Below, piece by piece: positions 59,993 through 61,221 of a stretch of DNA of 64,000 nucleotides (position 1 is the stretch's first letter; the number at the start of each line of letters is the position of its first letter). The notes beneath the pieces are model-generated. The model worked only from the letters and a program-made list of their open reading frames with translations. It searched no databases and was not told where the DNA came from. Where the stretch lies: positions 62,001 through 126,000 of the forward strand of contig NZ_LR656173.1 of assembly GCF_902168435.1 (NCBI RefSeq). Direction: 5' to 3'. The position numbers were made by a program, and so were the translations under genes. The stretch comes from Bacillus marasmi. Its GTDB lineage: Bacteria; Bacillota; Bacilli; Bacillales; Cytobacillaceae.

Positions 59993-60004
59993 GAACATTT
60001 GTTC
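59993..60004. promoter_or_regulatory. LexA (SOS) box
   Basis: GAAC-ATTT-GTTC, the exact core of the Bacillus LexA/DinR site (GAAC-N4-GTTC). It sits in the -35 region of the promoter below, 45 bp before the LAGLIDADG gene. Confidence 0.75.
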
Positions 60005-60010
60005 TATTTG

Positions 60011-60019
60011 TGTTATGAT
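60011..60019 (+). promoter_or_regulatory. extended -10 promoter of the LAGLIDADG gene
   Basis: TGTTATGAT: extended -10 with no good -35; the LexA box occupies the -35 position. Confidence 0.6.
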
Positions 60020-60048
60020 GGAATCAAGAGTAAAGGGGGGATGTTACG

Positions 60049-61221
60049 ATGCCAAGACATAAGGGGATAACTGACGAAGATATCATTAAAATGTATAAAA
60101 GTGGTATGCCCTATAAAGAAATGATACCCATTATCGGCTTAACTGACAGAGGAATCCGGAAAGTAATATACAGACATGGCGTGCAAATAAATCGAAAACA
60201 GGGATCTGGACAGCCGAGAAAACATAAAGTGAATGAGGATTTTTTCAAAACATGGTCGCACGAAATGGCCTGGGTTTTAGGTATGTTTATCACTGATGGA
60301 ACTGTAAGTAGAAAAACCAATAGTATTTCATTTGCTCAAAAAGATGAAAAAATATTACATATAATAGCTGATTACATGAATGCAGACTACGTATTAACTC
60401 CGTTAGCTCCAACAAAAAAGACTCCAAGTCTAGTTATTAATTCAAAAGAAATTTGTAACGATCTTGAAAAAATAGGTATTAAAGCAAATAAATCTTTAAC
60501 AGTACCGTTTCCAGATGTACCGGAAGAGTTTTTACCTTCCTTTGTTAGAGGTGTAATCGATGGTGATGGTTGGGTAGATTATGAAGGCTATGTAATGAAT
60601 ATTACTACTGGAAGTCAATTATTCGCTAATCAATTAGAAATCATTTTTAAGACGTGGGATCTTAGAAGTGAGATTACTACTTTTATTACTCAAGCTAATA
60701 ATACTATTTATCGGGTATGGATAAAAGGTAAAAGAAGTTTAATATTCTTAGCGAGTTTAATATATAAACATGAAATTGGAAAATTTATCAACTATAAAAG
60801 ACTTAATATGTCGCAACATTCAAATGAACAAATGTCGAAGTTGGAACAGCTTTTAACTCATAATGAGTATATACTACTTGATAATCACCTATGGAAATTT
60901 GAAAACGGAAAGTTATTAAAAACGAATCCTACAAATAGAATTTCATTTAGAACCACCGTAAGTAAAACTATTCTTGAAAAGTTAAAAATTTTAGCAAAAG
61001 AGAAAAACACTCAAGTGAACCATATAATTGAGAACTGCTTAAAAGCATTGTTATCTAGTGGTAACATTAATTTTAATAAGAAATTTAGACCTAATGATCG
61101 AATCCATTATAAAACTACATATGATAAAGAATTATTGGAAAGTGTTAGAGAATTTGCTTATAATCATCATGTAAATGTGAATGATGTTATCGAACATAGT
61201 TTCAAATTTCTTAAAGGCTAA
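60049..61221 (+). CDS. free-standing LAGLIDADG endonuclease-like protein with HTH and duplicated RHH-like tail
   Basis: 390 residues from ATG 60049 (AAAGGGGGG upstream). N-terminal HTH-like segment ([19 protein letters not shown], about 7-50). Two LAGLIDADG motifs: [11 protein letters not shown] (about 74-84) and [10 protein letters not shown] (165-174), each with an acidic residue. C-terminal duplicated 38-residue unit: 298-335 ([16 protein letters not shown]) and 352-389 ([16 protein letters not shown]), each looking like a ribbon-helix-helix. No intron or intein host is visible. Predicted SOS-inducible DNA-binding nuclease or regulator; function unknown. Confidence 0.82.

Follow-up and report, generated by a model that had tools for sequence, protein, structure and literature searches.

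LAGLIDADG homing endonucleases are usually, though not obligatorily, carried by introns or inteins. A LAGLIDADG-type regulator, WhiA, combines a LAGLIDADG-like fold with a helix-turn-helix (HTH). Small genes associated with Xer sites are found in the pdif modules of Acinetobacter plasmids, where they lie between two sites. The invaders of the chromosomal dif site that are known to us all borrow Xer recombination. Among the IMEX is the one in Vibrio cholerae that encodes XafT, which we take to be the TLC phage. In the openly accessible literature, as represented by titles and the openings of abstracts, no description was found of a LAGLIDADG (homing endonuclease) or ribbon-helix-helix (RHH) element at dif; the papers listed contained, within the same scope, no account of a LexA/SOS-controlled homing endonuclease of this kind. 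Here we describe such a locus in a 64,000-nucleotide stretch of Bacillus marasmi DNA (the window, to which coordinates refer) together with its relatives. Boxed nuclease genes at dif across Bacillus-type bacteria look like an undescribed kind of mobile element. We infer cleavage, induction and the role of the RHH protein, and consider it probable that these loci are SOS-induced, selfish homing elements resident at dif, whose RHH protein makes an altered dif usable.

The window copy encodes a single fused protein of 390 aa (60049..61221, + strand), made up of an N-terminal HTH-like part, a LAGLIDADG domain and two RHH-like repeats. The LAGLIDADG region (residues 69-242; 60253..60774, + strand) is delimited by conservation and by Pfam LAGLIDADG_3 (PF14528), which matches the protein with an E value of 1.8e-13. 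The phage endonuclease family phrog_4645 matches over residues 8-242, and profile searches find the solved homing endonucleases 7qsu (E 2e-13) and 2dch (E 2.4e-5). The acidic residues of the two LAGLIDADG motifs, D83 (60295-60297, + strand) and D173 (60565-60567, + strand), are conserved in 68/68 and 67/68 of the aligned nuclease rows, respectively. A first-pass annotation had described a free-standing two-motif LAGLIDADG protein, and this holds: both motifs that it quoted are present with their acids, and the gene has its own promoter. Because the motif acids are conserved, a nuclease is likelier than a pure regulator, and judged by its sequence the window protein is probably a DNA-cutting enzyme. 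An intron or a known RNA was rejected as its carrier, since the ORF is free-standing with a promoter of its own and an Rfam scan of 59800-61900 gave nothing at gathering score.

The C-terminal repeats (repeat 1, residues 297-341, 60937..61071; repeat 2, residues 349-388, 61093..61212; both + strand) look like RHH units of the Arc/MetJ type, as suggested by weak profile matches and a comparison of the repeats. In particular, repeat 1 has weak matches to DUF6364 and to Arc-like repressors, and repeat 2 is assigned by repeat comparison. The RHH part matches the Arc-like family phrog_3180 weakly (E 1.5e-4); DUF6364 is matched in 8/26 RHH members at E 0.01, and a PDB profile search with the RHH part gave nothing convincing. 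The C-terminal tail YxxRxE of separate RHH proteins is absent from the second repeat of the window copy. A defence system was rejected as the identity of the locus, PADLOC having found no match for the window protein or for the RHH protein of a relative, L008.

Upstream of the gene, a 14-bp palindrome, AGAACATTTGTTCT (59992..60005, + strand), constitutes a LexA (SOS/Cheo) box that overlaps the -35 position and is kept upstream of relatives. By direct reading, it is followed by an extended -10 element, TGTTATGAT (60011..60019, + strand). Both features had been pointed out previously, the former as GAAC-ATTT-GTTC at -35, and both are confirmed: the 12-mer core, GAACATTTGTTC, lies at 59993-60004 and matches the core of the LexA consensus. 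As given in the accessible part of PMC2248561, the Firmicutes/Gram-positive consensus is CGAACRNRYGTTYC, from which the window box differs at 3 positions outside the core (one R and the outermost base at each end). The genome was found to contain one LexA gene, and the lexA/yneA intergenic region contains three boxes of the window type, GAATATATGTTC, GAACGTCCGTTTG and GAACTTATGTTTG. The genome (4.64 Mb) contains the 12-mer itself 3 times. As a bare pattern, GAACN4GTTC shows no genome-wide enrichment (35 sites versus 50 for the backwards control); thus, a lone box says little, and the evidence lies in its conservation. Another box, GAACGATCGTTC (L092, G000 C19:342113), is located between divergent genes that by eye encode a DNA cytosine methyltransferase-like protein and a restriction-type protein; this may be a restriction-modification locus linked to SOS.

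Conservation of the box among orthologues, a check named in the first-pass annotation, was examined directly. A strict box is present within 200 bp upstream in 52/64 unique family loci (window included; loci with at least 150 bp upstream), while dinucleotide shuffles of the same 64 loci yield 0.49 boxed loci on average and 3 at most in 200 rounds. In addition, 18/20 distant homologues (about 32-39% identity) have a strict box and 16/20 have a dif core. The shuffles and the relatives together rule out a chance origin of the window box. Among the 12 loci without a strict box, L004, L014 and L059 carry one-letter variants; L010, L038, L043-L047, L066 and L068 have neither. The suggestion of a DNA-damage-linked nuclease or regulator is therefore supported by the conserved box, with a nuclease favoured, but it was incomplete, since the adjoining dif and the RHH-like part had been missed.

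The likely DNA-binding parts at both ends of the protein would also suit autoregulation, in which the box is bound by the element's own protein and not by LexA. However, the box is similar to the consensus core and to those at the lexA gene of the same genome, it is kept in a distant clade whose C-terminus by eye is HTH-like and not RHH, and its central bases and its position relative to the -10 element vary among relatives. Autoregulation is consequently very improbable. A second SOS-box LAGLIDADG locus is seen in the same genome: the only other LAGLIDADG_3 gene found there encodes 138 aa and lies behind a gene for a 392-aa protein that has no convincing family matches (L105, G000 C27:74000-84000; L002, L102). 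The promoter of this locus shares with the window promoter an identical 27-nt stretch and the same LexA box; the tmRNA gene, adjacent to smpB, is ~340 bp from the locus.

The chromosomal dif, at which chromosome dimers are resolved, has the sequence AGTTAACATAATATATATTTCAGGAACT (61271..61298, + strand) and begins 49 bp after the stop codon of the 390-aa ORF, with its XerD-arm side toward the gene. It has 4 mismatches to the B. subtilis dif, the string of which occurs in PMC3025954. GC skew flips at this site: in six-kb windows it is positive in 9/10 before dif and negative in 11/11 after it (124 kb), and at 1-kb steps it goes from +0.17 at 60001-61000 to -0.04 at 61001-62000. With a looser dif pattern the window site is the only mismatch-free match in its genome; one further match, with 1 mismatch, lies 13 kb off and has no dif arms. 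A more stringent dif core pattern, which the dif of the window does not fit, is found in 74/193 family genomes, with one match per genome. Side-by-side reading of the relatives revealed a conserved non-coding block downstream, the first part of which is dif. Most relatives likewise lie at dif. The gap between the last gene and dif has a median of 30 bp (range 15-424; 79 loci), and the side and orientation of the element relative to dif are constant in loci where both were found.

On the XerC-arm side, tens of nt from dif, most loci examined, occupied or empty, have an inverted repeat, GTCTCA..AAGTATACTT..TGAGAC, which in the window reads AATTCTGTCTCAA..AAGTATACTT..TTGAGACAGAATT (61314..61360, no strand assigned). 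Because it is also present at empty dif sites (for example L110 and L117-L137), this repeat, the second part of the downstream block, is a host feature of the dif region and was rejected as a part of the element. Other genes were noted in the vicinity. A 288-aa tyrosine-recombinase-like ORF (57125-57991), ~3 kb from dif, matches the XerD model at E 1e-17, far below the cut-off, and its catalytic positions look degenerate by eye; in L008, L009, L016 and L066 a Xer-like gene, again judged by eye, ends directly upstream of the element. On the other side of the window dif (62760-63833, minus strand), a collagen-like repeat protein adjoins a family-2 glycosyltransferase, an arrangement that recalls spore-surface BclA loci.

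Box and dif occur together. Of 103 nuclease loci, 68 have both, 12 have dif only, 9 have the box only and 14 have neither (Fisher p 3e-5); 8 of the 14 are phage and plasmid controls, and two of the loci scored as box only, L065 and L265, do have a dif beyond their broken ORFs. The dif core is absent from the examined stretch in L030, L032, L043, L047, L049 and L053; in the last two, the reason is a distance to dif of 35 and 9 kb, respectively. The 8 phage or plasmid relatives have neither an upstream box (0/8 within 300 bp) nor a dif core (0/8). Six of them have polymerase, dnaE or repair genes as neighbours on one side or both, and two adjoin genes for hypothetical proteins. A phage or plasmid source was rejected, since among the matches listed (40 of 138 and 10 of 10) such relatives are partial and 21-33% identical, the single viral-contig relative having 33% identity.

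The commoner form of the element consists of separate neighbouring genes for the nuclease (~260 aa) and for a tandem-repeat RHH protein of 123-130 aa whose C-terminal tail is conserved. The nuclease and the RHH part are fused in the window and at some other loci, and the window dif is near-canonical. When there is a separate RHH gene, the XerD outer arm of dif is replaced by a GCCCCGA-like sequence. Loci that share one dif flank were counted once, and a separate RHH gene was scored as intact if its ORF had 115 aa or more and aligned over 95 residues or more; such a gene is present at 59/59 altered-arm loci and 0/57 canonical-arm loci (Fisher p 2e-34, kinship ignored). There is one near-miss, L068, in which a 111-aa RHH ORF with both repeats and no tail lies upstream of the nuclease at a canonical dif and fails the cut-off on length alone. 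L010 contains an RHH fragment of 62 aa, and a fused RHH part is present at 12/57 canonical-arm loci (truncated in L056). Nine loci have no dif core in the stretch (L019, L021, L030, L032, L043, L047, L049, L053 and L144), and three others, L064 and L153 with RHH and L176 without, belong to neither arm class and are outside the 59 and 57.

On the nuclease tree, arm and RHH form switch together in 6/6 independent contrasts on supported branches (p 0.031). Significance is only just reached, and these six independent switches make it less likely that common descent alone explains the coupling. Across the order, the altered-arm pattern is found in 17/397 genomes, with an RHH match in 17/17; the pattern misses sites with a divergent core, and several RHH-matching genomes are therefore outside the 17. 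The putative DNA-contacting strands of fused and separate RHH proteins show no clear difference by eye and were rejected as the cause of the arm switch. In a later class-level sample from outside the order, an altered arm again accompanies an intact RHH gene in 8/8 loci (L264, L267, L270, L272-L275 and L277), and the canonical loci are L262, L263, L269, L284 (with a 70-aa RHH fragment) and L265. The last of these goes against the rule, combining a canonical arm with a 123-aa RHH ORF, which seems to be left over from a fusion that has broken. RHH is also present at L266 and L276, whose arms are odd in other ways; L271 and L285 have RHH with no good dif core nearby, G736 and G810 contain further RHH copies 20-30 kb away, and L268, L278 and L279, at 31-37% identity, lack both box and dif. 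In L277 (G227 C10) the RHH gene is accompanied by a GCCCCGA-type dif-like site of its own, and the host inverted repeat is lacking; the genome has a canonical dif match elsewhere, and L277 is possibly a mobile copy.

At the 59 altered-arm loci the nuclease is intact in 33, fused in 2, broken in 8 and absent from 16, and RHH is intact in all. L067 was scored as nuclease-intact despite a frameshifted start. The box tracks the nuclease, with only 4/19 RHH loci whose nuclease is gone or a remnant retaining a box within 200 bp (Fisher p 2.6e-6). Most loci that have kept RHH and lost the nuclease have lost the box as well; the box is thus associated with the nuclease, and the RHH gene with the altered dif. 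Among RHH-only pairs, dN/dS is 0.192, 0.100, 0.112 and 0.088 for the four closest and reaches 0.35 when the pairs are more diverged; at loci that lack the nuclease, purifying selection acts on the RHH gene. Thus, the nuclease is dispensable and the RHH gene seemingly is not. That RHH always accompanies an altered dif, even without the nuclease, suggests that it enables XerD there.

This selection on the RHH gene would also be expected if the locus encoded a domesticated host factor, a DNA-binding nuclease or nickase that is induced by SOS and aids dimer resolution at dif after damage, when recombination produces more dimers. SOS, recombination and dimers are indeed linked, and retention of the box (18/20) and the dif core (16/20) over deep divergence (33-40% identity) would fit such a function. 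However, the nuclease is broken or absent at 24/59 altered-dif loci, and presence is patchy among relatives: counting any matching part and including the window's genome, the family is found in 45/193, 84/397 and 24/398 genomes. In addition, family labels are scattered across the nuclease tree. The label f1 requires 12 changes on that tree (68 nuclease domains), 5 of which are forced by supported branches, with the bootstrap not settled; the sister pairs L063/L070, L073/L074 and L007/L033 differ in form at dif. Finally, 6/8 phage or plasmid relatives are placed like ordinary homing endonucleases. A domesticated host factor is thus unlikely.

Comparison of empty and occupied alleles indicates what is gained at dif. 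In genus g10, the left neighbour gene is common to the occupied loci L025 and L026 and the empty loci L124 and L127, and from inside dif onward they share the whole right flank. The occupied alleles have ~1.3 kb, comprising the boxed promoter, the nuclease, the RHH gene and the new outer arm of dif, in place of ~100 bp; the right junction is inside dif and the left one is approximate. These are the only pairs with two-sided homology among 19 presumed-empty dif loci. Two genomes of the same genus as the window have no family match; their dif is near-canonical, with neither a nuclease nor an RHH gene inside 1.5 kb of it.

An altered XerD arm next to an intact core and XerC arm resembles one junction of an integrated element, and the locus might accordingly be an IMEX-like remnant integrated at dif by host Xer recombination, with the altered arm as one half of an attachment site. 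As described in the accessible parts of two reports, the TLC phage site is likewise highly divergent on its XerD side (PMC5357621), and a Vibrio cholerae IMEX encodes an XerD-activating factor, XafT (PMC9765430). However, no second dif was found at the g10 insertion, and no second dif or half dif lies within 1.4 kb upstream (less where flanks are shorter), except for a possible half in L039; a pair of attachment sites was rejected on this basis. Moreover, the ~1.3-kb insert of L025 contains the nuclease and RHH genes only, and dif stays canonical with the one-gene forms. We regard an IMEX-like origin as distinctly unlikely.

Taken together, these observations are best accommodated by an SOS-induced homing element resident at dif. 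LexA would repress the nuclease gene until DNA damage or incoming single-stranded DNA lifts repression, so that the nuclease would fire when RecA is active. The nuclease would then cut an unoccupied dif or a sequence beside it; dif would suit it well as a target, being needed, conserved and present in a single copy. Homologous recombination, just boosted by SOS, would copy the element in from an occupied template, and a break at dif itself would prolong SOS until no cuttable site remains. The two-gene form would swap the outer XerD half of dif for the GCCCCGA-like sequence, and its tandem RHH protein would restore Xer function at the altered site by letting XerD work there. The host, under this proposal, could then not lose RHH even after decay of the nuclease. 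Several observations count against this reading, among them the loci that lack a strict box or a dif core in the stretch, and L068. Loci of the one-gene and nuclease-only kinds, the window among them, have a canonical or near-canonical dif, which raises the problem of self-cleavage; the target may lie beside dif. In addition, the maintenance of box and dif at 33-40% identity would fit a long-kept host function too. More tentatively, and with somewhat less than an even chance in our judgement, the loci may represent a new class of mobile element, in which an SOS-triggered nuclease homes into dif and rewrites half of the XerD arm, hosts become addicted to the RHH protein, and chromosome segregation gains an essential part derived from the element.

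If this is true, homing endonucleases, the SOS response and chromosome segregation are joined in one system. The nuclease here seems to rely on break repair, with LexA timing it to the production of recombination proteins. The pairing of an altered dif with RHH would be a testable case of a selfish element that makes itself needed, the altered-dif variants would form a natural set for examining XerD outer-arm requirements, and an explanation would be at hand for small RHH-like genes that adjoin dif.

With LAGLIDADG homing endonucleases such as phrog_4645, 7qsu and 2dch, the element shares two motifs, their acids and homology, together with a patchy, decaying distribution and apparent movement between families. 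It differs from the usual ones in having no intron or intein, a non-coding chromosomal site, a LexA-box promoter and an RHH- or HTH-like C-terminus. Unlike WhiA, it retains the motif acids, and the Pfam WhiA model matches a relative, L025, weakly (E 0.013). Like IMEX, which in the accessible parts of their descriptions include the CTX, VGJ and TLC phages, the gonococcal genetic island and LME-1, it occupies dif and has an altered dif at one end. IMEX are recognized by two flanking dif-like sites; here, with the upstream scan extending to 1.4 kb, there is one dif only, in an element of ~1.3 kb that has a nuclease and no phage or transfer genes. The single Xer site also distinguishes it from Acinetobacter pdif modules. 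As with XafT of the Vibrio IMEX, a factor encoded by the element is paired with a site that lacks a normal XerD arm; in contrast to that case, the site here is apparently the host's only dif.
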